From the NCBI GenBank assembly GCA_015272165.1, contig JACYMF010000057.1, forward strand, positions 1-64,000: a stretch of DNA of 64,000 bases, given 5' to 3'. Shown here in pieces: positions 3,058-38,380 of this stretch. A program made the translations under genes and the position numbers. Source of the stretch: Cyanobacterium sp. T60_A2020_053. Its GTDB lineage: Bacteria; Cyanobacteriota; Cyanobacteriia; Cyanobacteriales; Cyanobacteriaceae. The notes beneath the pieces are model-generated. The model was not told the DNA's origin. It ran no database searches and saw only the letters and a program-made list of their open reading frames with translations. Position 1 is the stretch's first letter, and each line of letters opens with the position of its first letter.

Positions 3058-5337
3058 TTAACTAACTACAGCGTCACGATCTAGTTTTAACATCAAAACA
3101 CCTAAAGGAGGTAAACAAAGATCGAGAGATTGAGAATAAGTATGGAAAGGCCATTCCTCAGTCCATTTTCCCCCCAAATTACCCATATTACTACCACCGT
3201 AGTCTTTAGAATCACTGTTAAAGATTTCGGTATAAAATCCCATTTCAGGCACACCTACTCGATAATGGCTATGGGGTTGAGGGGTAAAATTACAGACAAC
3301 GACGATAAAATCATCACTATTTTTGGCGCGACGGAGAAAAGAAACCACACTATGACGATTATCGCTACAGTCAATCCACTGGAAACCTTCTTTTGTGAAA
3401 TCATTATCATACAAAGCAGGTTGAGACTTATATAAAGCGTTCAGATTTTTAAAAAATCCCTTTAATTTACCGTGGGATTCATACTGTAAAAGATGCCATT
3501 CTAAATCTGTCCAAACATTCCACTCACTCCACTGCCCAAATTCCATACTCATAAACATGGTTTTTTTGCCCGGATGCGCAAACATATAACTAAATAAAGC
3601 GCGTAAATTAGCAAATTTTTGCCATTCATCTCCCGGCATTTTGCCGATCATATTACTTTTACCATGGACTATTTCATCATGGGAGAGCGCTAACATATAG
3701 TTTTCACTATGGTGATACCACATACTGAAAGTGATGTTATTTTGATGAAACTGACGAAACCAAGAATCCATGGCGAAATAGTCTAGCATATCGTGCATCC
3801 AGCCCATGTTCCATTTCATGTTAAAGCCTAAACCGCCCATGTAGGCAGGACGAGAAACCATTGCCCAAGAGGTGGACTCCTCGGCAATAGATAAGATACC
3901 GGGGAAGTAACCAAAAATGGTGCTGTTAACTTGCCTTAAAAAGTCCACTGCTTCAATATTTTCTCTGCCACCATAGTCATTGGCTACCCATTCCCCATTT
4001 TCTCGGTCATAATCGAGGTACAACATGGAAGCTACCGCATCAACTCGGATTCCGTCAATATGGTATTTGTCAAACCAAAATAGCGCGTTTGCCACTAGAA
4101 AATTACGGACTTCATTTCGTCCATAGTTAAATACTAATGTACCCCATCCTTTATGTTCACCCTTGCGAGGATCGCCGTGTTCAAATAAGTGTGTACCATC
4201 AAAGAAGGCTAAACCATGACCATCTTTAGGGAAATGACCGGGTACCCAATCCACAATTACCCCAATACCGTTAAGATGGCATTGATCGATAAAGTACATC
4301 AAGTCTTCGGGTGTGCCATAGCGAGAAGTAGGAGCGTAGTATCCTGTAACTTGATAACCCCAAGAGCCATCGAAGGGATGTTCAGCGATGGGTAATAACT
4401 CAATATGAGTATAGCCTAATTCTTTAATATAAGGGATGAGGGCTTCTGCTAATTCGTAGTAGGTGAGAAAACGGGCATCAGGTTTGAGATCAGATGCGGT
4501 GGTCATTTCGGTTTTTTCGCCGTAGTGCTTGGGCGGTTGTTCCTTGGAAGTATGAAGCCATGAACCGATGTGCATTTCATAGACGGAAATGGGTTGAGAA
4601 AGGGGATCGGTATTGCGTCTTTTTTCGAGCCATTCTTGATCATGCCACTGATAGGAGTCTAAATCGGCAACAATGGAAGCGGTTTTGGGGCGCACTTCTT
4701 GGGCAAAGCCAAAAGGGTCTGATTTTTCGTAAATATGCCCTTCCCAGTTTTTGATTTCATACTTATAATGAGCGCCCGTCGCCACATCAGGAATAAATAA
4801 TTCCCAAATAATATTATCTATTTTACGCATTTGATGCTCTCTGCCGTCCCAATTGTTAAAATCACCCAAAACGGAAACATTACGGGCGGAGGGCGCCCAA
4901 ACGGCAAAATATACCCCTTTAACGCCATTTTGGACGATGGAGTGCGCTCCTAATTTTTCATAAATGCGATGGTGATTACCTTCCTTGAATAAGTAGAGGT
5001 CAAAATCAGTAATAGTTTGAGATTTAAACTGATAGGGATCATAAATAACCTTTTCTTGATCTCCTTCCTTTACTCTTAATTGATAATTATCTAATTCTTC
5101 AATTTCAATTTCACATTCAAAAAAATGGGGATGAAAACGAGACTGCATCTCAAACTCAATGCGATTTTCTGGAGATATGACATAAGCCTCTGTGGCTTTC
5201 GGTAAATAGGCTCTTACTATGTAAATTTTACTTTCTCCGTCATCGGATAATAGGTGTGAGCCTAAAATCTCAAAAGGGTCATGATGTAGATTATTAACAA
5301 TTTGTTCTACTTGGTGTTGACTAATGTTACTAGGCAT
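3058..5337 (-). CDS. glgB: 1,4-alpha-glucan branching enzyme (GH13)
   Basis: The 759-residue protein is a full-length glycogen branching enzyme that makes alpha-1,6 branches in glycogen. Residues 1-120 form the extra N-terminal domain found in bacterial GlgB; a CBM48 beta-sandwich follows (YFAVWAPSARNVSVLGDFNNWDG, 143-165, in part). The catalytic barrel shows region I DWVPGHFP (363-370), the nucleophile D433 in GIRVDAV, the acid AEEST (485-489) and D554 in LSHDEIVHGKS. A beta-rich C-terminal domain closes the protein. The start is an ATG followed by the typical ISQHQVEQIVNNLHHDPF. It is divergent from fusA and has no visible operon partner. Confidence 0.97.
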   Translation of the reverse strand: MPSNISQHQVEQIVNNLHHDPFEILGSHLLSDDGESKIYIVRAYLPKATEAYVISPENRIEFEMQSRFHPHFFECEIEIEELDNYQLRVKEGDQEKVIYDPYQFKSQTITDFDLYLFKEGNHHRIYEKLGAHSIVQNGVKGVYFAVWAPSARNVSVLGDFNNWDGREHQMRKIDNIIWELFIPDVATGAHYKYEIKNWEGHIYEKSDPFGFAQEVRPKTASIVADLDSYQWHDQEWLEKRRNTDPLSQPISVYEMHIGSWLHTSKEQPPKHYGEKTEMTTASDLKPDARFLTYYELAEALIPYIKELGYTHIELLPIAEHPFDGSWGYQVTGYYAPTSRYGTPEDLMYFIDQCHLNGIGVIVDWVPGHFPKDGHGLAFFDGTHLFEHGDPRKGEHKGWGTLVFNYGRNEVRNFLVANALFWFDKYHIDGIRVDAVASMLYLDYDRENGEWVANDYGGRENIEAVDFLRQVNSTIFGYFPGILSIAEESTSWAMVSRPAYMGGLGFNMKWNMGWMHDMLDYFAMDSWFRQFHQNNITFSMWYHHSENYMLALSHDEIVHGKSNMIGKMPGDEWQKFANLRALFSYMFAHPGKKTMFMSMEFGQWSEWNVWTDLEWHLLQYESHGKLKGFFKNLNALYKSQPALYDNDFTKEGFQWIDCSDNRHSVVSFLRRAKNSDDFIVVVCNFTPQPHSHYRVGVPEMGFYTEIFNSDSKDYGGSNMGNLGGKWTEEWPFHTYSQSLDLCLPPLGVLMLKLDRDAVVS

Positions 5338-5715: not shown

Positions 5716-7809
5716 ATGAAGAAAGACCTTAGCAAATATAGAAATATTGGGATTTTTGCCCACGTTGACGCTGGTAAAACCACCACTACAGAAAGAATCC
5801 TTAAATTAACTGGTAAAATTCACAAAATCGGTGAAGTACATGACGGTGCAGCTACCACCGACTTTATGGAACAAGAACAGGAAAGAGGTATTACCATTCA
5901 ATCCGCCGCCACAAGCTGTTTTTGGAAAGATTATCAATTTAATATTATTGATACTCCCGGTCACGTTGACTTTACCATCGAAGTATATCGTTCTCTCAAA
6001 GTTCTTGACGGCGGTATTGGTGTATTTTGCGGTTCTGGTGGGGTTGAGCCTCAATCAGAAACCAACTGGCGTTATGCCAACGATTCCAAAGTAGCTCGGA
6101 TCATCTATGTTAATAAATTAGACAGGACAGGCGCTAATTTCTTCAATGTTGTTAAACAAGTTAAAGAAATTTTAGCAGCTACTCCTTTGGTCATGGTTTT
6201 ACCCATCGGTATTGAAAATGACTTTAAAGGTATGGTGGACTTATTAACCCGTAAGGCTTGGATATGGGATGATTCGGGAGACCCCATGAACTATACCGTT
6301 GAGGATGTTCCCGAAGACATGAAAGACGAGGTCGAAATGTATCGTGAACAGTTAATCGAAACTGCAGTAGAACAAAATGATGAACTCATGGAAAAATATC
6401 TCGAAGGAGAAGAAATCGCCGTTGAGGATATTAAAGCCTGTATCCGCAAAGGTACTCGTGAATTAGCTTTCTTCCCCACTTATTGCGGTTCTTCTTTCAA
6501 AAATAAAGGGGTACAATTAGTTCTTGATGCAGTAATTGACTATCTCCCAGCGCCCGACGAAGTTAACCCACAACCAATCGTGGATTTAGATGGTAATGAA
6601 ACTGGTGAATTTGCCAAAGTTGATCCCGATGAAACTTTAAAAGCCTTAGCTTTCAAAATCATGGATGATCGCTACGGCGCCTTAACCTTTACTCGTATTT
6701 ACTCTGGTAAGTTGGAGAAAGGTATGACTATCCTTAATACCGCCACTGGTAAAACAGAACGGGTGGGCAGAATTGTGGAAATGCACGCCAATGATCGTAT
6801 TGAAATCGATCAAGCCCAAGCCGGTGATATTGTTGCCATCGTGGGCATGAAAAACATTCAAACTGGTCATACTCTTTGTGATCCCAATCATCCTGCCACC
6901 CTAGAACCAATGGTATTCCCCGATCCCGTTATCTCCATTTCTATTAAGCCTAAGCAAAAAGGCGGTAATGAGAAAATGGGTATGGCATTAAGTAAAATGG
7001 TACAAGAAGACCCCTCTTTTTATGTAGAAACCGATCAGGAAAGCGGTGAAACCATCATTAAAGGCATGGGAGAATTGCACCTCGATATTAAAGTGGACAT
7101 TCTCAAACGTACCCACGGGGTAGAAGTGGAAGTCGGTAAACCTCAAGTAGCTTACCGTGAATCCATCACTAAAGTGGTTAATGATAGCTACACCCACAAG
7201 AAGCAGTCTGGAGGTTCTGGACAATTTGGACGTATTGACTACACCATCGAGCCGGGCGAACCGGGTACAGGCTTCCAGTTTGAATCTAAAGTTACTGGAG
7301 GTAACGTTCCCCGTGAGTTTTGGCCCGCCGTGCAAAAAGGTTTTGAAAACAGTATCGTCAAAGGTGTTTTAGCTGGTTATCCTTGTGTTGACCTTAAAGT
7401 CACTTTAACCGATGGTTCTTTCCACCCCGTGGACTCTAGTGCCATTGCGTTTGAAATTGCTGCCAAAGCTGGTTATCGTCAATCTATTCCTAAAGCAGGT
7501 CCTCAAATCTTAGAACCGATTATGAATGTGGATGTTTTCACCCCTGAAGATCACATTGGTGATGTCATTGGTGATCTTAACCGTCGTCGTGGCATGATTA
7601 AGTCTCAAAGTACCACTCCTATGGGTGTGAGAATTAAAGCAGAAGCGCCTTTGAGTGAGATGTTTGGTTACATCGGTGATTTGCGTACCATGACTTCTGG
7701 GCGTGGTCAATTCTCTATGGAGTTTGATCATTATGCTCCTTGTCCGAGAAATATTGCCGATCAGGTGATTACAGAAGCGAAAGAGCGTGAATTAGCTTTA
7801 GCTAAATAA
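5716..7809 (+). CDS. fusA: Elongation factor G, redox-cysteine type
   Basis: A complete 697-residue translational GTPase that drives ribosomal translocation. GTPase motifs are AHVDAGKTT (15-23), DTPGH (79-83) and NKLD (133-136), followed by EF-G domains II-V including the GMGELHLDI motif and a C-terminal [11 protein letters not shown]. It stands alone rather than in the rpsL-rpsG-fusA-tufA cluster, and closely resembles the Synechocystis Slr1463 type. It has cysteines at exactly 105 (GVFCGSGG) and 242 (DIKACIRKG). In Slr1463 these two positions were reported to form a disulfide that inactivates the factor under oxidation and is reduced by thioredoxin; conservation here suggests the same control. 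Strong TATAAT promoter candidate upstream; ends at TAA just before repeat-rich DNA. Confidence 0.95.
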
Positions 7810-7830
7810 TTGATTGAGATGGTTTGCCCT

Positions 7831-8086
7831 CACCCCAACCCCTCTCCCACAGCAGGGGATTTTCAAAGTCAGGATCAAAATTGATTTGTTTTTGACAAGA
7901 AGACAATATAAGGATGATCCCCCCCAACCCCCCTTAAAAAGGGGGGAGATTCAGGGAGACAGGAGGATTTTTTACTATTAATTGATTTATTAGTAGTTAA
8001 AAACCTCTGAATTTCAGATTATTGGCTAGTTTGAGAAACTAACATTTTTGAGAATGAAAACGCCCTGCTCCCACAGGAGAGGGGAG
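7831..8086. repeat. R6 hairpin interrupted by R1
   Basis: An R6 element (CCCTCACCCCAACCCCTCTC, then GGAGAGGGGAG) is split by the 215-bp R1 insertion. The 9-bp sequence CTCCCACAG occurs on both sides of the insert (7844-7852 and 8068-8076). Without R1 the R6 copy would read as a normal hairpin downstream of fusA. Confidence 0.85.
7853..8067. mobile_element. R1 MITE, 215 bp, copy 1
   Basis: The element begins CAGGGGATTTTCA and ends in the inverted form TGAAAACGCCCTG, so it has 13-bp imperfect terminal inverted repeats. It is flanked by a 9-bp target duplication CTCCCACAG. The interior carries a C-rich hairpin (CCCCCCTTAAAAAGGGGGG) and no reading frame. An almost identical copy of the same length lies in the opposite orientation at 18338-18552. 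The only visible differences are near one end, so transposition was recent. A long terminal repeat-flanked transposase gene is not present in this window. Confidence 0.9.
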
Positions 8087-24643: not shown

Positions 24644-25363
24644 TTATTCTGCTAACTCCACACTATCAGCATAACTATAGATTTCGATGCCCAAAGCTTT
24701 TGCCACAGGCAAAGCGCGCTTATCCACCATCGGACAAATTACCATCTTACGATTAATTTCACGGTTGTGACGTTTCGCATAAAAATCTGCCTTTCTTCCA
24801 AAAATATACATTCCAGCCTTATCAATAGAAGATTTGATTTCACAGAGAATAAGTAAACCATTTTTGACAATAATATCAATTTCCACTTGATCTGGTCTGC
24901 CAAAAACCTCCCCTTGATCATCAAATTCTGTCACATTGACAACCTGCACCCCAAAAGAATCCTCTAAAATACCTTTTAAAGCATTACGGAAACTAGCTTC
25001 TGAGTATAAACCCCATCTTGAACCTAAAGCACCGATGGTACTATCATATTTTTTAGAAAGTTCTTTAATTTCAGTTAAACTTTGATCAATTTGGCTTTGC
25101 ATTTTATCAAATCTTTGACTACTTTCATCCCATTTGCGGTTGGCTTCGTCCCATTTTCGATTTTGTTCATCCCATTTTCGAGCTTGTTCTTCTCTGTCGC
25201 TCTGTAATTCTGCTAAGATACGATCAAATTTGTTATCAATTTCTGCTTTAGGAGTGTAATATTCTGATACTGTGCGCAGAATAAAATCTCGAATTAGGGG
25301 ATCATTACTAATTAATGTGGGTAACTCTTGTTTAATTAGGTCTTTAATTTGGGTTTCTGTCAT
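24644..25363 (-). CDS. DUF3782-type PD-(D/E)XK nuclease-like protein with coiled coil
   Basis: Residues 40-110 form a coiled coil with heptad units RKWDEQN, RKWDEAN, RKWDESS encoded by 21-bp tandem repeats. The C-terminal half (about 115-239) has the DUF3782 pattern: SEASFRNALKGIL, FGRPDQVEIDIIVKNGLLILCEIKSS. The D...E-x-K arrangement (EIDIIV, LCEIKS) fits a restriction-endonuclease-like fold. Substrate and function are unknown; related proteins are widespread in cyanobacteria in many copies. Possibly co-transcribed with ruvX (118 bp gap). Confidence 0.85.
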   Translation of the reverse strand: MTETQIKDLIKQELPTLISNDPLIRDFILRTVSEYYTPKAEIDNKFDRILAELQSDREEQARKWDEQNRKWDEANRKWDESSQRFDKMQSQIDQSLTEIKELSKKYDSTIGALGSRWGLYSEASFRNALKGILEDSFGVQVVNVTEFDDQGEVFGRPDQVEIDIIVKNGLLILCEIKSSIDKAGMYIFGRKADFYAKRHNREINRKMVICPMVDKRALPVAKALGIEIYSYADSVELAE

Positions 25364-30026: not shown

Positions 30027-30422
30027 TTAAACCCAATTATCTAATCTTATGTTAAGAATCCGTTGATAATGGCGAGTATTATTTGTTACTAAAATTAAAT
30101 TGTTAGTTAATGCCACACTAGCAATAAGTAAATCGAAATTATCTATTGTATTGCCCGTTTTTCTCAAAAAGGCTTTTAATTCACCAAATTTTTTGAGACT
30201 ATCGTTGGTAAATGACAATACAGATATACTTTTTAAAAAGTCATCGAGAGTTTTTAAATTATTGTCTATCTGATTAGAATTATAAGCACCAAAATATAAT
30301 TCTGATACTGTAATTTGACAAATACATACTTGATTAAAACCCACTGTACATAATCTATTTTTAATTGGGATTCTACCTTTTAGCCAATAAATACAAGTAT
30401 CTGTATCCAATAAATACTTCAT
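30027..30422 (-). CDS. VapC-like PIN-domain toxin
   Basis: The 131-residue PIN-domain protein has the acidic nuclease residues D6 (YLLDTDTCIYWL), E41 (ITVSELYFGA) and D97 (TIDNFDLLIA), followed by VTNNTRHYQRI. PIN toxins of the VapC family cleave tRNA or rRNA and are held in check by a cognate antitoxin. The small gene immediately upstream (15-bp gap) fills that role. The pair closes the tubulin/MotAB gene run on the same strand. Confidence 0.9.
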   Translation of the reverse strand: MKYLLDTDTCIYWLKGRIPIKNRLCTVGFNQVCICQITVSELYFGAYNSNQIDNNLKTLDDFLKSISVLSFTNDSLKKFGELKAFLRKTGNTIDNFDLLIASVALTNNLILVTNNTRHYQRILNIRLDNWV

Positions 30423-30437
30423 TTAATCTGTGTTATT

Positions 30438-30647
30438 TTAATCTAAATTATCATTTCTGTTGCTATAAATTTCCCCTATTATTTCCTCATCCGTTTTCGT
30501 GTCATCCCACTTACCAAAAGTATCTAATAAATTTTGATCATTGTAGTTATAATTTTGCTGTTTTAACGTCTTTTGAACGATTTTTTCAATTATTGATTCT
30601 AACTGATTAATAGTTAAATTTTCTATAACGTTTACCGATTTATTCAT
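30438..30647 (-). CDS. Small antitoxin partner of VapC-like toxin
   Basis: A 69-residue acidic protein; residues 1-35 are helical (NLTINQLESIIEKIVQKTLKQ), and the C-terminal part LDTFGKWDDTKTDEEIIGEIY matches the tail of cyanobacterial antitoxins paired with PIN toxins. The acidic tail probably blocks the VapC active site. Starts 41 bp after the MotB-like gene ends, so it could share its transcript. I am sure of the pairing, less of the exact antitoxin family. Confidence 0.8.
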   Translation of the reverse strand: MNKSVNVIENLTINQLESIIEKIVQKTLKQQNYNYNDQNLLDTFGKWDDTKTDEEIIGEIYSNRNDNLD

Positions 30648-30688: not shown

Positions 30689-31315
30689 CTAATTACTTCT
30701 ACCCGGAGGAATAAAACGAATTTCAATGCGCCTTCTCGTGTCGTCTTGAGTGCGATTGACGGGCGCAAATCCTCCCGATGGTAAATATAATTGCGCTCCA
30801 GAATATGCCCTAAATTGGACGTTTTTAAACTCTCCTTGTTGCTGTAATTCTTGCACTACTGCTAAGGCTCTCATTAGGGCTAAATCGCCATTCGAGCCGG
30901 GTTTTAACTGTTTAACACTAAGTTGATTTTGAGCAACCTTTTCTAAATTTTGGTCTAAATTTCCTGATACCCCAGCGCCCACCACCTGCCCATCAGTATG
31001 CCCGATTACTTGAATAAAATCAATGTCTTGTGTCTTAATAATTTGATTAATTTGTGGGGTGACAATTTCAGTTATATAGCTTTTTAAATCGGGGGTTAAT
31101 TCAGCGCTTCCTGAAGGAAACTGAAAATTCCCAGATTCTTCATCTATGACGATGGGAGTTGCTGACTGTAGTCTTTTATTTAATTCTAAAGATTGAAATA
31201 ATGCTAATAATAATAAAAAACTAATAATCATAAAAGCATTAGACATTAAATCAGTAAAAGAAGGAAAAATATCTAAATCTTGGCTCTCAGCTAAATTTTT
31301 TACTCTGCGTCTCAT
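30689..31315 (-). CDS. MotB/ZorB-like membrane protein with OmpA-type peptidoglycan-binding domain
   Basis: The 208-residue protein has a short basic cytoplasmic N-terminus, one transmembrane helix (about 24-43) and a periplasmic OmpA/MotB domain (about 65-208). D22 in PSFTDLMSNAFMI lies at the helix start like the ion-binding aspartate of MotB and ZorB. The OmpA signature is clear in VIGHTDGQVVG and DLALMRALAVVQEL, ending in DTRRRIEIRFIPPG. This is the stator half that anchors to cell wall. With the adjacent MotA-like protein it should form an ion-driven 5:2 motor unit. No flagellar genes are nearby, and the arrangement resembles ZorAB of the Zorya anti-phage system. Confidence 0.85.
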   Translation of the reverse strand: MRRRVKNLAESQDLDIFPSFTDLMSNAFMIISFLLLLALFQSLELNKRLQSATPIVIDEESGNFQFPSGSAELTPDLKSYITEIVTPQINQIIKTQDIDFIQVIGHTDGQVVGAGVSGNLDQNLEKVAQNQLSVKQLKPGSNGDLALMRALAVVQELQQQGEFKNVQFRAYSGAQLYLPSGGFAPVNRTQDDTRRRIEIRFIPPGRSN

Positions 31316-31389
31316 GGCTTTTTTATAATAAATTAATGACCTTGTTTTTCTAAAAAATTAACATTTTTTAACTGTAAATAATATTCTAA

Positions 31390-33018
31390 TTATGATATTG
31401 ACTTAATATCATCATTTTTTAAATAAGATTTGTCTAATATCTCTTTGGCAAGATAAATAAATCGTTTTTCTGTCTCGTTTAATGCTTGTAACTTTTGCTC
31501 TAAATTTGAACTGATATTGTACATATTATCAGCAAATAAATTATAACTGTTTTTGCTATTAACAGAAATTTCCCCTATTCTTAAAAGAATATCTCTACTT
31601 AAATTTGTCATTTCTAAATATCGATTATTAATATCATCTACATTGTGAGAGAGTTTGACCATATTATCAGCAGACAATTCAAGGGTTTTTACATTTACGG
31701 TAATCGGTTTAACAATTTCATTAAGAGTTTTAACTACTTCATTAGTTTTCTCTACAATAGAATCTAAATTATTTGTAGTATCAAATAAATGTTCATTAAA
31801 TTTACTTTCTTTAATGGTAATAGCAGAATCAGCGAATATTATCGCACTCTCTTGTAAACTACTACTAGAATCCCGAAAATGCTCATAAACTCCTTTAGCT
31901 AAATGAGTGGTTTGTTGATTATTTTCAACTATTTTTGCGTTAGAATTAGCTAACAAATTAGTAGCCTCTGCAAATTTTTCTTGTACTTGAGTTAAGTTAA
32001 TAATAATCTTTTCTATATTCTCACTAAATTTACTATTTTCAATTTTTTCAGAAGAATTTAACATTCTTTTTGAGCTTAAGTCTAAACTTTTTATGTTAAC
32101 TTCAAATTGATCATTAATTTTTGCTAAATTATTTACCCTTTCTTCTATTTTTAATACAGCATTTTCAAAAATCCTTGCACCACTGTGGAGGGCGCTACAA
32201 GAATCAAATAGTTGTTGATATACTTGAATTGCTAATTTTTGTGACTTTTCATTTTGATCAGCCATTCTATCACTAGCTTGTTTAAAAGTTTTTTCTAAAA
32301 CTTGCCCGACATTATCATGAAATCTTAGCAAAAACTCATGTTGTTGTTCCACCATTCTATTAACAGCTTTATCAAGTCTCGTATCACCTTCTACTTGAGG
32401 TTTATAAATATTGTCCAGATAATCTTCTAAATTATTAAGTAAACTATTTTTTTCAAAATTAACATTATTTTTAATATTTATAACTGTTAAAAAAGAACTA
32501 CAAACTAAAGCAATTAAGCTAGTGAGAAAAGCTAATGCCATACTTTGTAAAGGTGTTTGCAACTGATTGGTTAAATCTGTAATTTCAGCCCCTCCTTGAT
32601 TGATAATTTGACTAATACTATTTAGGTTAAGAGTGATACCCAAAAAAGTTCCTAATAAACCAAAAGCAAGGAGTAAATTAGGCATAATTTTAGTAATATA
32701 TTCTCCTTTTTCACAGCGCACCTCACCCCAAAAAAAACGGAATGTTTCTTGATAATAAACACCATCAATTAATGCCAAACTATTAACATTCTCTATTTCT
32801 TTACTTGCTTTTCTAAATCTATTTTGTAATCTCTCTAAAAATAGAGGTTGTTTACCTTGACTATCACCATTAACTAATCGATAAGTTTTTTTTCTCAAAT
32901 CTAAAAGATGACGATACAACGAAACGCGCAATCCCCAAATTGCTAAGGTAGGAATAATGACAAATAAAACTGTAATTATCCTTAAATATAAGGGGAAAAT
33001 TTGCAATATTTCTAACAT
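31390..33018 (-). CDS. MotA/TolQ/ExbB/ZorA-like proton channel with long cytoplasmic tail
   Basis: The 542-residue protein has three predicted helices: 8-30, 112-132 (NLLLAFGLLGTFLGITLNL) and 157-181 (PLQSMALAFLTSLIALVCSS). The GLLGTFLG motif is the MotA/TolQ/ExbB proton channel hallmark. Residues 185-542 form a long cytoplasmic helical tail with many heptads and polar, S/N-rich repeats (for example LANSNAKIVENNQQTTHLAKG). TolQ and ExbB lack such a tail; ZorA of Zorya has one. Its partner is the MotB-like protein 74 bp downstream. The tail may contact the tubulin-like protein encoded just upstream; that is inference from gene order. Confidence 0.85.
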   Translation of the reverse strand: MLEILQIFPLYLRIITVLFVIIPTLAIWGLRVSLYRHLLDLRKKTYRLVNGDSQGKQPLFLERLQNRFRKASKEIENVNSLALIDGVYYQETFRFFWGEVRCEKGEYITKIMPNLLLAFGLLGTFLGITLNLNSISQIINQGGAEITDLTNQLQTPLQSMALAFLTSLIALVCSSFLTVINIKNNVNFEKNSLLNNLEDYLDNIYKPQVEGDTRLDKAVNRMVEQQHEFLLRFHDNVGQVLEKTFKQASDRMADQNEKSQKLAIQVYQQLFDSCSALHSGARIFENAVLKIEERVNNLAKINDQFEVNIKSLDLSSKRMLNSSEKIENSKFSENIEKIIINLTQVQEKFAEATNLLANSNAKIVENNQQTTHLAKGVYEHFRDSSSSLQESAIIFADSAITIKESKFNEHLFDTTNNLDSIVEKTNEVVKTLNEIVKPITVNVKTLELSADNMVKLSHNVDDINNRYLEMTNLSRDILLRIGEISVNSKNSYNLFADNMYNISSNLEQKLQALNETEKRFIYLAKEILDKSYLKNDDIKSIS

Positions 33019-33074
33019 ATTATGTGTTTATTAATTAAGTAATTTTACTGAGTTAAATTTTAGCTTGATTCCGT

Positions 33075-36000
33075 TTATAAACCGCCAATAATTCTTTTCG
33101 CTCTTTGAAATTCTTCATCATCTAAATCACCAGATTTACGCAAATCAATTAAATCTTTCATAGTGACACCTTGCCATCTCTTCAAAAATTCTTGATCTTC
33201 TTCTGTAATTTGATTAGGATTATTATCCCAAAAGTCAACCTCTACAACCTCAGTATATTGGGCATCATTGTTATGATTGTTACTATTTGTTGCTGATTTA
33301 CTAGAAATTAATAGTTTTTTTTGCTCATTACTTTTTTTCGCTGACAATGAATGTTTTTTAGGTGAATTTTCCGACGGTTGAACATTATCAATAATCTGAA
33401 TAAAGCGATCATATATTCTCCTTAATATACCGTCTTTTCCTAAAGAAGTGCGGTCTGCTCTTTCTCCTAAAACATATTTTTTCTGACTATAATTGATGTC
33501 ATATTCCGTTAATCTGTCTAAATCATCAATAAAACTAATTAAACTTGGGTAGTAGCTTTGCTGGAATATACCGGGATTTTCTTTGACTTCTTCTTCCATA
33601 GTTTTGACAGTATCAGCTAAATAATTTCTGATAGTTTCATTTTGGCTAATGGTTTCTAAAGCTTCTTCCCAAATACCACTAATATCAACCTCATAAACTT
33701 TATCTCTTAAGTCATCTTTTAACTCTAAGTAATAGTTATTATGATCAGGTTTTTTGATAATTTTCCCAAATGCTAAACAAGTATAAAAATCATCCTGTAA
33801 TAACTCCATCTCTCTACCTTCTGGGGGAATAATATCGAGGAAAAAAGTTTGAGAATCATTATGTAAGTTGTAACCGTCATACAAGCGTTTTTGTCGGTTA
33901 TATTGTTCTCTCAATTCTCTTAAACCGTTAACAATTCTCAAAGGAAAACCTCCAAACTCTTTAATGAAGACAATTTCATTTTTAGTTTGTAGAGGAATAA
34001 TAACATCTGAATTAATGCCTATATCGTCAATGATTAATTTTCGGAATTCTTTATTTTCCCTATCATCTGTTTGTTTGAAACCGATAATTTGTTTTGTTTT
34101 ATCAGCGTCATTGACAAAATAAGGGGCATTGCTGTTTAAAGGTAATAAAACGTCTCCTTCATCAATAATTTGTTTTAAGCGAGTTTGTCCATCAGAAAAA
34201 GGGTATTTTTGCACAAAACGGTTAACGACAGAATCAGTTAAATCAAAACTTTTATCCCCAAATCTTTCTTCAATATTAGTATCAACAGTTTGGCTTAATT
34301 CCTGTTGCTCAATAATTCTTTCTCCTGTGAAAAAATGCAATAAGGATGGAGGAATTGTCACACTTTCATTAATTCTATGGCTTACTTCTACTAATAAGTT
34401 TCTTCTCTCTCTTTCTGGCAATAAAACTTGATAATATTGATCATTATCATCAGCTTCAAATATTGCCTCTCCGTTAATTTCATCGTCATCAATTTGACTC
34501 AAATCTTCTCCTTTGCGGAGGTAATAACTTTCTAAGTCTTGTAATAAATTATGAAAATTACTGGCTTGAGTTTTTAATTGTTGTACTAATTGTCGTAAAT
34601 TAATGGCGATTTTCAAACTTTCATCGGTTAAAGTTAAATCAAAATTACGTTTAATCAGTTTAGTAATTTCTTGAATGCCTTGATTTACTTCTTGTTGAAA
34701 TTCTTTACTTTTAGTCTTGTTAGACTTACCCCCCATACCTAAAAATCTTTTTTTATCTCCCTCTATATCTTTAATACTTTGAGAAATATCTTGCCATTTT
34801 TTCTCAATATTTTCTAAGTTAACAAAAATAGCTCCTTCTTGTTTTTCTTCTTCCAATTCTCTAACATATTCATTTAATTTTGTTAATAATGCCTCTAACC
34901 AACCTCGACTATTATCTAAGGCAAAATGAGGATTAGATGGTTGTAATAATTCTGCTAAATAATTAAGAATATCTTGGCTAAAACTTTTCTCTAGTTTTTG
35001 ACTGTTTTTTTGTAGTTGAGTTAACCATGTACCTCTAATATTTTCGGTTTCTCCTTGTTGAACTTTTTTAAATTGATTTTTTAATTCACTGCGCATTTTC
35101 TCCATAAACATTTTTCTGTCTTCTGAGTTTTTGCAGTTATCAATTTCTTTCTGTTGTTTATTTTTCCAGTTGTTTAAAACTTGATTAAATGATTTATCAT
35201 TTTCTACAGTAATAGACTCTAATTTATTTTTAAAAATATTTCTAGTATTTTCATCTTTGGACTGCCAATTTAAGAGAAATTTATCTAAAAGTTCTAAAGA
35301 ATCTGGGCTTTGCCCTTCGCCGTATAACCAAAAATTAATTAATTTAATTTTGACTTTATTTAAGCAAATTGTAATTGTTAAATCACGGGGAAAATAAATT
35401 TTAGCTAAACCAAAGGTTAAATATCTTTGTGCATTAGGGCGTGGATGTTCGTCATAAACACTAAAATACTTTTTAACGTTATCTCGATGTCCTTTAATAT
35501 TTGTAGATATTTCTTCAGCAAAATCAGCAAAAATTTTATGAGCAATTACTTGAGATAATTTTTCTTTTTTGACAATTTTATGTCCACTGTTAGTGCGATT
35601 TCCGACCAAGTAAACAAAGTCAAAAGGTGGTCTATTTTCATCCACTGAAAATAAATTAACAGGGTCATAATTAGCCGTAAATTGTGTTCCCTGAGAAGTG
35701 TAATAATTAAGTTCTTTTAAAGCGGCGTAAGTATTTGCTTTAACACTGGGAGTATTACCATATAACTCTGGGGCAATAATTAAATAAGCTGTAATTACGC
35801 TGTCAACTTCATAACCATATTTTTCTCTCAAACTATAAGCCATATCGATAAATGTACCGCTTCCTGTACCACCGCATAATGAACCGACAACAATAATATT
35901 TGTACCCGGATCAACTATGATATTTTTAGTGAGTAGTTTTTGAGCATGTCCTACAGTTGCGTTATCTGCAGTGTCGATGGCTTGCTGTATTTTACTGTGA

Positions 36001-36449
36001 TTATGAAAAAATGCTAGTCTGCCTACTGGACGAATGGCTCCCGCACCGTTTTCAATAGATTTAACATCTTTTAAAATTTGTTTTGGAAACCATGAGCCAA
36101 TATGATCATAGGGTGATTGTCTTTCATATTCGCTTCTTCTTTCTAAACCTTTACTCAAATCGTCTATTTCTTGCTTATTCATGGTAGCGGTGACGATTTC
36201 AGAAGGCTTAAATAAAACATTTTCGCCATGATAAGTGTCGCCAGTTTTTAACCCTGTTATCTGAGAAGCACCTTTGTCGGTGTCAATATGTATAAAACTA
36301 ACGACTGGCAGTTCTGATAGCTTACCATAGCGATCCACTATTAAACGTCTAATTTGCATTAGTATATCTCGACCTGTGCCACCTAAGCCGATACAAATGG
36401 TGCGTTTGATGTTTAGGGTTTTAGTTTCTGTTGGGGTATTACTTGGCAT
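33075..36449 (-). CDS. Tubulin-like (tubulin_2) GTPase, large
   Basis: From the ATG of MPSNTPTETKTL the protein has 1124 residues. The N-terminal third has a tubulin/FtsZ-like nucleotide fold: TICIGLGGTGRDILMQIRRL for the first loop and a tubulin G-box VVGSLCGGTGSGTFIDMAY near residue 200. The central part is long, helical and charged (about 380-760), with coiled-coil stretches. The extreme C-terminus (MKDLIDLRKSGDLDDEEFQ, AKRIIGGL) is SHOCT-like. This combination matches bacterial tubulin-like (PF13809-type) proteins whose function is unknown. It lies 56 bp upstream of the MotA-like gene and 148 bp downstream of the DUF4926 gene. The gene contains no GGGCGCT heptamer in 3.4 kb, unlike its surroundings, hinting at later arrival. 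Confidence 0.85.
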   Translation of the reverse strand: MPSNTPTETKTLNIKRTICIGLGGTGRDILMQIRRLIVDRYGKLSELPVVSFIHIDTDKGASQITGLKTGDTYHGENVLFKPSEIVTATMNKQEIDDLSKGLERRSEYERQSPYDHIGSWFPKQILKDVKSIENGAGAIRPVGRLAFFHNHSKIQQAIDTADNATVGHAQKLLTKNIIVDPGTNIIVVGSLCGGTGSGTFIDMAYSLREKYGYEVDSVITAYLIIAPELYGNTPSVKANTYAALKELNYYTSQGTQFTANYDPVNLFSVDENRPPFDFVYLVGNRTNSGHKIVKKEKLSQVIAHKIFADFAEEISTNIKGHRDNVKKYFSVYDEHPRPNAQRYLTFGLAKIYFPRDLTITICLNKVKIKLINFWLYGEGQSPDSLELLDKFLLNWQSKDENTRNIFKNKLESITVENDKSFNQVLNNWKNKQQKEIDNCKNSEDRKMFMEKMRSELKNQFKKVQQGETENIRGTWLTQLQKNSQKLEKSFSQDILNYLAELLQPSNPHFALDNSRGWLEALLTKLNEYVRELEEEKQEGAIFVNLENIEKKWQDISQSIKDIEGDKKRFLGMGGKSNKTKSKEFQQEVNQGIQEITKLIKRNFDLTLTDESLKIAINLRQLVQQLKTQASNFHNLLQDLESYYLRKGEDLSQIDDDEINGEAIFEADDNDQYYQVLLPERERRNLLVEVSHRINESVTIPPSLLHFFTGERIIEQQELSQTVDTNIEERFGDKSFDLTDSVVNRFVQKYPFSDGQTRLKQIIDEGDVLLPLNSNAPYFVNDADKTKQIIGFKQTDDRENKEFRKLIIDDIGINSDVIIPLQTKNEIVFIKEFGGFPLRIVNGLRELREQYNRQKRLYDGYNLHNDSQTFFLDIIPPEGREMELLQDDFYTCLAFGKIIKKPDHNNYYLELKDDLRDKVYEVDISGIWEEALETISQNETIRNYLADTVKTMEEEVKENPGIFQQSYYPSLISFIDDLDRLTEYDINYSQKKYVLGERADRTSLGKDGILRRIYDRFIQIIDNVQPSENSPKKHSLSAKKSNEQKKLLISSKSATNSNNHNNDAQYTEVVEVDFWDNNPNQITEEDQEFLKRWQGVTMKDLIDLRKSGDLDDEEFQRAKRIIGGL

Positions 36450-36606
36450 GATTATCAAAATTTTTTAGGCTACTAATTATTTATCAGGAATTTATGAGCT
36501 ATTTATGCAAATTACCAATTTTTAACTTCAATGATAGGTGATAGTTACAATAATATGACGGAATTTCAGAATTGAGGGTTTTTTCATAAAAATTTTATGT
36601 TATGTT

Positions 36607-36855
36607 TTAAGCTAAGACAAGATTAGAAGTATCGTAGTAAAGTAAAATGAACTTTTCGGGATTCAGAGATAATAATGCGTAAGTTTGCCCATTTTCATCT
36701 GAAAATTCTACTTCAAAGGCTTTATTTTCGGGATAAATTTCAACAATTGTGCCTACTTGTCCTCTAGGAATAATTATCGTTTTATTTGTCATAAATTGTT
36801 TAGCTGTAATATTTTCATTTAAGGCAACCATGTCATGTAATTTAATATGATTCAT
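36607..36855 (-). CDS. DUF4926-family small protein
   Basis: From MNHIKLHDMVALNENI the protein has 82 residues. The pattern LHDMVALxEN...IPRGQVGTIVEIYPENKAFEVEFSDENGQT, followed by LLSLNPEKF, is that of the DUF4926 family: a small SH3-like beta barrel. Such genes are often paired with a DUF6883 gene, as here (eight-base gap). Function unknown; a toxin-antitoxin or immunity role is guessed in such pairs, not shown. A longer upstream frame overlapping the previous gene was rejected. Confidence 0.82.
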   Translation of the reverse strand: MNHIKLHDMVALNENITAKQFMTNKTIIIPRGQVGTIVEIYPENKAFEVEFSDENGQTYALLSLNPEKFILLYYDTSNLVLA

Positions 36856-36863
36856 AATATTTT

Positions 36864-37202
36864 TTACAGAGGGTAAACTGTTGTTAAACGAGGATATTCT
36901 TCTGTATTTAGAATAATCCATGCACTTCTAACTTTACAAAAGCCGTAAGGTGTTTTTAATAAAAAATCGATAACATATTTTTCACCGTGAGGACTATTTT
37001 CCGTATGACAAACATCTTCTTCTTTTGCTATTTTTAACAAAGCATCGATTAAAATATATTGATTATCTAAGTTAATTCCCAATATTGATTTGAATAGACG
37101 AGCTTTATGTTGACCATCTTTATGATCTTCTTTTAATATATAGTTGGTCAGTTTTTCTGATATTTGAGTTGGTTTGACGTTATCTCCATTTGGTAATTTC
37201 AT
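36864..37202 (-). CDS. DUF6883-family protein
   Basis: A 112-residue protein beginning MKLPNGDNVKPTQISEKL with the signature DHKDGQHKARLFKSILGI and the end FCKVRSAWIILNTEEYPRL. This matches DUF6883, a compact alpha/beta family with a HKAR motif that commonly precedes DUF4926. It sits between the vWA gene and the tubulin-like gene on the same strand, so it may be part of the same transcript or a small cassette inserted into the locus. Confidence 0.8.
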   Translation of the reverse strand: MKLPNGDNVKPTQISEKLTNYILKEDHKDGQHKARLFKSILGINLDNQYILIDALLKIAKEEDVCHTENSPHGEKYVIDFLLKTPYGFCKVRSAWIILNTEEYPRLTTVYPL

Positions 37203-37258
37203 TTCTTTATAAATAAAAATTTATAAAATGCTTTACTCACAATCAAGCTCAATTTAAC

Positions 37259-38380
37259 CTAGCTTTGTCTTGTTATTTTAATATATAATTCTTCTCTTAC
37301 ATCAGGCATATCTAACCGTATAGAGCGATCTTGGGCGTTTTTTAGGTATATTTTATCTCTTATTTCTTGACCTTTATATTCTATCGGTAAACTATCGGAG
37401 TGAGGTTCAATAATTAATCGGTTTCCTTTTCTTCTTAAATATCCTCTAATTTCGCCTCCTTTACACTCCACATCTTCCCCAATCGATAGACTTTCATTAT
37501 GTTTCAGGTAAATTATTTGACTATCATCATCATCATTTATTTTAACTTCTAATTTCCAGACTTTTTTTAAATCCAAATAATATTTAATGCCGTAAAATCC
37601 AGCGCCCCCCACCCCAAGCAAACATAGTAAAATTAAGCTAAAAGGTAGCCATAATTGACCAAAAAGATAAGAATTCACCAGACAAGTTTCTCTACCGCCG
37701 GGCGCTGGGGTACAAAATTCCTGCACCGTAGGGGCAATATCAACCACACTTAACTGATAATTACCAATAGTGCGACTGTTGCTAGTGAGGGGAAGATTAT
37801 CTAACCAACTTTGACGGTTAACACTTTCAGATGTGGTAGCATCACGATAAGGACTATTCGCAGGAGTTTCTATCCACACCTCAGAAGTCATACCCGGCGA
37901 AGTTTGCAAAGGCGCATCCGTTAACCATACCACCGACTGCGGTTTTATCGGTTGCTTTTCACACAGTCGATTTTGATTGATTTGGGCGAGATTTTGATAA
38001 ATAAAATGTTCAGCTTGTTGTATATCTGTATTACTTTCATTGACATCCGTTTGCAGAGGAATTTTATTTAAAACCGCTTCGATACCTTCTTCAGGATTAC
38101 GAAATTCAATAGCTTCGGAAGGATTTAAAGGGTTACTATCACCCGTAGGGTTAACCTGTGAAGAAAAAGGCACAATATAAACCGTATCACCCCGATTAAG
38201 ACTCTCATCGATAATTTGTTTTAAACGTAATCTTCCCTCATCATCAAGGCTGACGCTTTCGGTTAAATCAATGGCAAAAACCACATCTCTACCTCGCCAC
38301 CATGACACCAATTCCAAACCTTTTATTTGCAAAGGTGTCAGGGTTTCACCGACGGTAATTTGGGCGCAATTATCTTTCAT
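37259..38380 (-). CDS. vWA-domain membrane protein with C-terminal FHA-like region
   Basis: The 373-residue protein has a von Willebrand A domain at its N-terminus (about 30-215): VVFAIDLTESVSL gives MIDAS residues D38, T40 and S42 (a DxTxS variant of DxSxS), and VVWLTDAP supplies the last aspartate. One transmembrane helix lies at about 243-266 (LPFSLILLCLLGVGGAGFYG). The C-terminal 100 residues (LSIGEDVECKGGEIRGYLRR, NRLIIEP) look like a diverged FHA-type beta-sandwich. There is no signal peptide, so topology is unclear. It is the first gene of the run leading to the tubulin-like and MotAB-like genes. Confidence 0.8.
   Translation of the reverse strand: MKDNCAQITVGETLTPLQIKGLELVSWWRGRDVVFAIDLTESVSLDDEGRLRLKQIIDESLNRGDTVYIVPFSSQVNPTGDSNPLNPSEAIEFRNPEEGIEAVLNKIPLQTDVNESNTDIQQAEHFIYQNLAQINQNRLCEKQPIKPQSVVWLTDAPLQTSPGMTSEVWIETPANSPYRDATTSESVNRQSWLDNLPLTSNSRTIGNYQLSVVDIAPTVQEFCTPAPGGRETCLVNSYLFGQLWLPFSLILLCLLGVGGAGFYGIKYYLDLKKVWKLEVKINDDDDSQIIYLKHNESLSIGEDVECKGGEIRGYLRRKGNRLIIEPHSDSLPIEYKGQEIRDKIYLKNAQDRSIRLDMPDVREELYIKITRQS

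Follow-up and report, generated by a model that had tools for sequence, protein, structure and literature searches.

At positions 30689-38380 of a 64,000-nucleotide stretch of DNA from Cyanobacterium sp. T60_A2020_053 (the window, by which we mean the whole stretch that was analysed) lies a minus-strand locus whose core is a set of four genes in fixed order. They encode a vWA protein with a transmembrane (TM) helix and an FHA domain, a tubulin-like GTPase of the Tubulin_2 family, a ZorA/MotA-like channel subunit with a helical tail, and a ZorB/MotB-like stator subunit with an OmpA domain. The co-occurrence of these four genes in cyanobacteria is not due to chance, and the motor pair is, by sequence, nearest to ZorA and ZorB of the Zorya system. 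We propose that the locus may encode one envelope-spanning machine in which an ion motor acts on the tubulin-like GTPase, a reading for which we regard the case as about evenly balanced.

Conservation of the four genes

Tubulin_2 matches were found in 61 of the 292 genomes of the phylum, with 57 above the family cut-off. We read 64 loci, namely the window and 63 stretches around the stronger matches; weaker matches (E 1.2e-8 and above, mostly frames of about 500 residues) do not enter the locus counts. The tubulin subfamily of the window accounts for 35 of the 64 loci, and 30 of these 35 carry the full set, in which the vWA, ZorA-like and ZorB-like genes share one strand and lie within 9 kb. 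Three of the other five (L050, L054, L088) reach a contig end. In the 29 loci of other Tubulin_2 subfamilies, by comparison, not one of the three partners is found at thresholds of 100, 100 and 80 bits. Fisher's test on these counts gives p = 2.1e-13, which makes the significance look greater than it is, since the genomes are related and the first group of loci also supplied the profiles. One of the 29 loci (L059) does carry divergent motor genes, which score below the thresholds.

Named genomes were scanned as well, and 178 relatives were confirmed, the best 80 of which were used, all of them cyanobacteria by title; this set overlaps in part with the 64 loci. The nearest named relative of the window's tubulin gene is that of Geminocystis sp. 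GBBB08 (78%). At 61 of the 80 loci all three partners lie a few open reading frames (ORFs) from the tubulin gene, in the order vWA, tubulin, ZorA, ZorB. A looser count, with the partners anywhere in the stretch, gives 66 of 80, and 11 of the remaining 14 loci are near a contig end. In 50 of the 60 loci measured, 7-32 bp separate the vWA and tubulin genes. Both surveys bear out the initial annotation of the window, which had taken these four families to belong together.

A quick tree of the tubulin-like proteins from 60 complete loci mostly follows taxonomy. A clade of 34 rows, with a Shimodaira-Hasegawa-like approximate likelihood ratio test (SH-aLRT) value of 100, consists of Nostocales by name except for Plectonema radiosum; three Microcystis rows group together, as do four pleurocapsalean rows. 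Two Prochloraceae rows fall apart, and several branches are long.

Related gene sets were also found in Deinococcus, where the tubulin-like, ZorA-like and OmpA genes follow the cyanobacterial order and the vWA-like gene was recognised by eye only. Each of four plasmids encodes a protein of about 420-450 residues, a protein of about 108 residues, a tubulin-like protein, a ZorA-like protein of about 410 residues and an OmpA protein of 200 residues, followed by a long protein (with LRV repeats in L197) and a beta-helix protein, which bears a kinase domain in L199, a D. actinosclerus plasmid. With the cyanobacterial ZorA-like profile, the four Deinococcus proteins are found in a small ORF set at E 7e-14 to 3e-12. 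In L197 the stator has an OmpA domain (2.8e-18) and its pore aspartate aligns; the first protein of L197 and L177 appears by eye to consist of a vWA-like domain, a single TM helix and a short domain at the C-terminus.

A third instance comes from G047, a deep-branching genome of the same phylum (loci L059 and L226), which encodes a vWA-like protein, a tubulin-like protein, four further proteins, a ZorA-like protein (43 bits) and a ZorB-like protein (24 bits; OmpA 2.1e-18). It was counted among the 29 partnerless loci because these scores fall under the thresholds. Its vWA-like protein contains a DASGSM motif and was read as vWA by eye. The intervening genes encode a 931-residue protein that reads as Hsp70-like, with no Pfam match, and three coiled-coil-type proteins that have a C-terminal stretch in common.

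Tubulin_2 genes also occur in other settings. On the Thermaceae plasmids L175, L200 and L227 the order is vWA, tubulin-like, a protein of about 680 residues and BrxL, and the Meiothermus plasmid copy also adjoins HmaC and a DUF1156 protein. In L067, one locus of a second Tubulin_2 subfamily of cyanobacteria, a periplasmic-binding-protein gene (Peripla_BP_6; 6233-7828, plus strand) lies upstream, and motor genes are absent. In a 9.8-kb phage record from human faecal samples (MT836542.1), positions 6934-7965 give a weak tubulin-domain match (23%, 2e-10).

Features of the four proteins

The window ZorA-like protein has three predicted TM helices, with T124 and S167 in the last two, and a helical tail from about residue 205. 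Nine residues (G120, G123, T124, G127, M160, A163, F164, S167 and L168) are invariant in 34 ZorA-like sequences, and all 34 match PADLOC ZorA1 at E <= 0.01. The window ZorB-like protein has one predicted TM helix and an OmpA-type domain. D22, which the initial annotation had pointed out at the start of that helix, is invariant in 32 of 32 ZorB-like sequences, as are GHTD (105-108) and RRRIEIRF (194-201). In the window itself, Pfam gives MotA_ExbB at 1.2e-3 and OmpA at 2.3e-4, both under the Pfam cut-off, and PADLOC gives ZorA1 at 8.2e-12 and ZorB3 at 9.5e-8.

Against the sequences of solved structures, the ZorA-like pore core matches 8vvn_C best and the ZorB-like profile matches 8vvn_B best; 8VVN is an entry of the Zorya ZorAB structure paper, according to the accessible text of that paper (PMC11890865). 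For the ZorA-like search, among the best 60 of 335 matches, three are ZorA or ZorA-type chains; the remainder look like helical or coiled-coil hits on the tail and were disregarded. A tree of 58 core sequences over 120 columns unites the tubulin-linked cyanobacterial, the Deinococcus and the cyanobacterial Zorya ZorA proteins in one clade (SH-aLRT/bootstrap 96.8/99), outside which fall E. coli MotA, TolQ and ExbB, two ExbB-type proteins from cyanobacteria and one orphan MotA-like protein. Within the clade, Zorya sequences are nested among tubulin-linked ones at bootstrap 41-49, and we claim no branching order there. We rejected membership of the motor in the TolQ/ExbB or flagellar MotA families, which occupy separate branches of this tree.

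The orphan MotA-like protein is encoded on another contig of the window's genome (C40; L202 3670-5100, minus strand). It has 476 residues, and no MotB-like gene lies beside it within the stretch read.

The tubulin-like protein matches Tubulin_2 in Pfam at 3.6e-100. Its glycine loop, GSLCGGTGSG at 192-201 of the listed ORF, is invariant in 39 sequences, and a model built from these sequences has a mean predicted local distance difference test score (pLDDT) of 83. The best match of the model is archaeal CetZ, at Z 24.2 and a root-mean-square deviation of 3.9, where 299 of the 342 residues of that chain align with model residues 17-861. Tubulins align at Z 21-22.6, and the alignments as a whole lie between residues 17 and about 880. 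The model shows both tubulin domains, arranged around a long helical insert. From the order of strands and helices, we infer that this mainly helical insert lies at about 385-780, inside the second tubulin domain. A sequence search of solved structures with the tubulin alignment gave no meaningful match.

The window vWA protein is predicted to comprise a vWA domain at about 27-212, a TM helix at 239-257 and an FHA fold at 274-373. Its vWA assignment rests on fold and motif. The model (pLDDT 85.5) has a long helix between the vWA and FHA folds, and VIA-align places vWA folds over 27-212 with Z about 9 and FHA folds over 274-373 with Z up to 10.3. Foldseek on the same model returned nothing at E <= 0.001, Pfam gives no vWA match in the window protein and VWA_2 in 4 of 29 relatives (best 0.0062), and a sequence search of solved structures with the vWA alignment gave no meaningful match. 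Residues D38, T40 and S42 of the metal ion-dependent adhesion site are invariant in 29 of 29 sequences; C223 and C233, ahead of the TM helix, are also invariant. By eye, the alignment shows neither His nor Asp within the TM helix of the window vWA protein.

Since FHA domains generally lie in the cytoplasm, the vWA domain would face outside. The N-terminus of the G047 vWA-like protein resembles a signal peptide by eye and those of Deinococcus do so less clearly; a computed hydrophobic start was found in G047 only. Phosphothreonine binding by FHA domains involves an Arg after a Gly and a Ser-x-x-His. These residues are unconserved in the vWA-protein alignment, and we do not claim phosphopeptide binding.

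The initial annotation had named three outcomes that would count against it, and none of them was observed: co-occurrence of the four genes is common in their tubulin subfamily, the motor pair groups with Zorya ZorA and apart from TolQ/ExbB and flagellar MotA, and the model gives the tubulin-like protein a tubulin fold, with an invariant glycine loop as its putative GTP-binding site.

Gene layout, passengers and neighbours

As the initial annotation had read it, the locus consists of six minus-strand genes in a row, all present in the ORF list (Table 1). They are transcribed in the order vWA protein, DUF6883, DUF4926, Tubulin_2, MotA/ZorA-like and MotB/ZorB-like. The most likely start of the tubulin-like gene is the ATG at 36449, in agreement with the 1124 residues annotated initially; the ORF as listed begins further upstream, with a TTG at 36458. 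For the DUF4926 gene the start given in Table 1, as in L038 and L058, is the most likely one, so that the DUF6883 and DUF4926 frames need not overlap. The source genome comprises 3.36 Mb in 118 contigs.

Table 1. Genes of the locus, with positions in the window
Feature	Position	Strand	Basis
vWA-TM-FHA membrane protein, 373 aa	37259..38380	-	fold and motif
DUF6883 protein, 112 aa, passenger within operon, non-core	36864..37202	-	Pfam
DUF4926 protein, 82 aa from likely start 36855, passenger, non-core	36607..36855	-	Pfam
Tubulin_2/FtsZl1-family GTPase, 1124 aa	33075..36449	-	Pfam, fold model
ZorA/MotA-like ion channel subunit, 542 aa (putative)	31390..33018	-	Pfam, PADLOC, tree
ZorB/MotB-like stator subunit, 208 aa (putative)	30689..31315	-	Pfam, PADLOC, alignment

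The DUF6883 and DUF4926 genes (Pfam 2e-24 and 1.7e-20) had been listed by the initial annotation among the six genes in a row. We rejected them as parts of the system, since they stand inside the operon in only 3 of the 64 loci (the window, L038 and L058). Passenger genes vary while the four genes keep their order, which indicates that the four core genes are the unit retained.

Other passengers were seen at other loci. Fic/DOC and MazE genes lie inside the vWA-tubulin-motor operon of L043 (4270-4949, minus strand), and a PIN gene with a FitA-like ribbon-helix-helix antitoxin gene lies inside that of L093, at another position (3119-3786, minus strand). The operon looks like a landing site for toxin-antitoxin modules, and DUF6883 is perhaps one half of a toxin-antitoxin-like pair.

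Directly behind the window operon lie a small ORF that reads as VapB-like (30438-30647, minus strand) and a VapC-type PIN gene (30027-30422, minus strand; NCBIfam VapCLeptosp 1.4e-39, slightly under the cut-off). A DUF3782/PD-(D/E)XK nuclease-like protein is encoded at 24644-25363 (minus strand), and we saw nothing that ties it to the locus. Scans for promoters (49 sites against 40.3, standard deviation 7.1, in shuffles) and terminators (1 against 4.1 in shuffles) gave no signal.

Possible function and comparison with known systems

In the machine that we propose, the ZorA-like and ZorB-like proteins would form an ion-conducting inner-membrane motor of the MotAB/ZorAB type, presumably in a 5:2 assembly. 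By analogy with Zorya and MotAB, the OmpA domain of the ZorB-like protein would hold peptidoglycan, and ions passing D22 and T124/S167 would rotate the ZorA-like ring together with its bundled cytoplasmic tail. The tail would act on the cytoplasmic tubulin-like GTPase, for which the helical insert of about 400 residues is the likely contact, and a GTP-dependent filament or oligomer would thus be assembled, moved or released. The vWA-TM-FHA protein would gate or anchor the machine, most likely with its vWA domain outside and its FHA domain inside. The output would most likely be envelope maintenance or membrane remodelling and not anti-phage defence, and the set has probably been kept in cyanobacteria mainly by vertical descent. 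A bolder form of this proposal, which we put forward tentatively and consider doubtful, is that the locus is an ancient ion-powered cytoskeletal machine, in which the tail of a wall-anchored ZorAB-type motor drives or controls a tubulin-superfamily filament under a vWA-FHA gate. Such action of ion-driven rotation on a tubulin-like filament would, to our knowledge, be without precedent.

Several observations weigh against such a machine. The ZorA-like tail varies from 300 to 621 residues among the 34 sequences and is poorly conserved, so that no specific contact between tail and tubulin is visible. No signal peptide is evident in the cyanobacterial vWA protein, which makes the outside location of vWA uncertain. 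The set is also incomplete in places: L055 is without ZorA, L082 has vWA and tubulin genes with no motor genes nearby, the genome of L155 gives no vWA or ZorB match (it may be incomplete), and in Geminocystis sp. GBBB08 the tubulin gene is on different contigs from the vWA and ZorB genes. In Deinococcus the stators match the cyanobacterial ZorB profile weakly, and in D. radiophilus an IS630 transposase gene separates a shorter tubulin-like ORF from the ZorA-like gene. The vWA-like proteins of Deinococcus and G047 do not match the cyanobacterial vWA profile, nor do those of L197 and G047 match Pfam. Thermaceae plasmids have annotated vWA and tubulin-like genes with no ZorA-like match in the two scanned, and since these genes stand beside BrxL, a link to defence stays open for the wider tubulin family. 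Finally, the interaction, the filament and the ion flow are all things that we infer.

The initial annotation had considered a membrane stress or defence machine possible, and the locus could be a variant of Zorya in which the tubulin-like GTPase and the vWA protein replace ZorC/ZorD or ZorE as anti-phage parts. The motor would then sense the wall disturbance of phage entry, and its tail would release or activate the tubulin-like effector. Such a role is suggested by the kinship of the motor, whose nearest relatives by PADLOC, solved-structure sequences and tree are ZorA and ZorB, by the plasmid location of the Deinococcus copies, one of which adjoins an AAA ATPase matching the candidate defence family PDC-M26A (2.1e-48), and by the BrxL genes, in Meiothermus with HmaC, beside the Thermaceae plasmid tubulins. 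Some cyanobacterial flanking proteins also match defence-type families. Of the 178 near flanking proteins we scanned 135, which come from 45 of the 60 loci, with two proteins of L146 omitted and no matched control. At E <= 1e-10, PADLOC matched 47 families with at most 7 members each; among the first 25 of these families the generic ATPase-type models mad3 and mad8 lead with 7 each. Defence-type matches (MTase_II, phospholipase effector and PD-T4-6) come to 1 or 2 of the 135 each, and Pfam gives Uma2 in 7, NACHT in 2 and NB-ARC in 2.

The remaining evidence points away from defence. No ZorC, ZorD or ZorE match was found among 7 + 10 proteins of the window region, a set that holds only part of the small ORFs, and the tubulin tree is mostly taxonomic. 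Among 77 loci with flanks, where neighbour identities were read by eye, the recurrent neighbours are PsbO (14), a sigma factor (14), an 884-residue protein directly downstream (12), cytochrome b559 alpha (9), a Ycf48-like protein (9) and NADH dehydrogenase subunits (5-6). Such shared photosynthesis and housekeeping flanks suggest a stable chromosomal site, not a mobile defence island, for those loci. Moreover, Zorya loci with ZorA, ZorB and ZorC exist separately in cyanobacteria. A defence role of the tubulin-linked set is weakly supported, and we consider a variant of Zorya unlikely.

The separate loci (L212, L214, L216 and others of L210-L225) are Zorya type I-like, with a gene of about 115-130 residues followed by ZorA, ZorB and ZorC. 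ZorC1 matches range from 4e-158 to 5e-182 in the three tested. The small gene ahead of ZorA gave no PADLOC match in the one tested (L214), and in the stretches read we could make out no ZorD by eye.

Two further explanations were considered. In one, the motor would move the periplasmic vWA domain, which acts as a force transducer, and the tubulin-like protein would serve as a scaffold in the cytoplasm on which the motors are placed. The tubulin gene has the vWA gene as its nearest neighbour, at the spacing given above, and a transducer role has been proposed for vWA proteins beside 5:2 motors, as far as the accessible text of that 2025 paper goes (PMC12204202). The TM helix of the window protein is, by eye, without the His and Asp signatures of such transducers, and a ZorB-like stator is present, so that the vWA protein is not required as a pore partner. 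We judge this explanation improbable. We are similarly sceptical of the other, in which the motor and the tubulin-like protein share an operon but work independently, for instance in co-regulated envelope functions carried out by separate complexes. Operons can group unlinked functions, the vWA and ZorB genes of Geminocystis sp. GBBB08 stand apart from its tubulin gene, and Thermaceae and other cyanobacterial Tubulin_2 genes occur without the motor. Against this, the association of tubulin-like, ZorA-like and ZorB-like genes recurs in three lineages with distant sequences, it is confined to one tubulin subfamily among the cyanobacterial loci read, and the four genes stay in order while their passengers vary.

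Part of the set has been described before. In the accessible text of a 2010 study, Makarova and Koonin (PMC2875224) reported a tubulin family, FtsZl1, whose gene neighbours include vWA, OmpA, kinase and GTPase families, and suggested that the system remodels membranes. They called the OmpA partner an OmpA-family membrane protein, found the second half of the tubulin fold unalignable and left filament formation open. The window shares with FtsZl1 the tubulin-like family, with an N-terminal tubulin GTPase domain and a T4-type glycine loop, the vWA and OmpA-family genes in the operon, a coiled-coil middle region and cyanobacterial hosts; it differs in that the second half of the tubulin fold is seen in our model. 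A protein kinase or P-loop GTPase is frequent but not universal in FtsZl1 operons according to the same text, and neither is among the six window genes. The combination of tubulin, vWA and OmpA was therefore already a named system, whereas the initial annotation knew of none of the composition seen here; the words MotA, TolQ, ExbB and proton do not occur in the main text of that study. The additional files contain unnamed families (A1-A2, B1-B9), and the ZorA-like gene may be one of them. In the open-access papers searched, outside which most subscription papers lie, we found none that joins a tubulin-like protein with ZorA/ZorB or MotA partners and no later functional work on FtsZl1 tubulins. 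Three papers mention both Zorya and FtsZ, and in the one examined FtsZ stands only in the title of a reference. The motor within FtsZl1-type operons thus seems previously unrecognised.

If an ion motor does act on the tubulin-like GTPase, this would explain how cytoplasmic FtsZl1 proteins, described in 2010 without an assigned function, connect to periplasmic partners: the OmpA protein, as a ZorB/MotB-type stator, and the adjoining ZorA/MotA-type channel would physically connect the two sides of the membrane directly. Anti-phage effectors would then also not be the only partners that ZorAB-type motors serve.

Compared with flagellar MotAB, Tol-Pal and Ton, the motor belongs to the same superfamily on a separate tree branch, and, as initially annotated, no genes of these systems are among the annotated neighbours. 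The force transducers of PMC12204202, as its accessible text describes them, likewise combine a vWA protein bearing a TM helix with a neighbouring 5:2-type motor, and the signatures given there for the helix are an SHLS motif or a pore aspartate; in contrast, the window protein has neither by eye, the motor is ZorAB-like and a tubulin-like GTPase is added. The closest resemblance of the motor is to Zorya, which depends for its activity on the pore aspartate of ZorB, the tail of ZorA and the binding of peptidoglycan, according to the accessible text of PMC11890865. Judged by sequence, the locus has a ZorA-like channel with a long helical tail and a ZorB-like stator with a pore aspartate and a peptidoglycan-binding-type domain. 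It differs from Zorya in that a tubulin-like GTPase and a vWA-TM-FHA protein are present, with no ZorC/ZorD or ZorE match among the window-region proteins scanned, and in the best PADLOC ZorA match, 8e-12 here versus 4e-195 for a genuine cyanobacterial ZorA.

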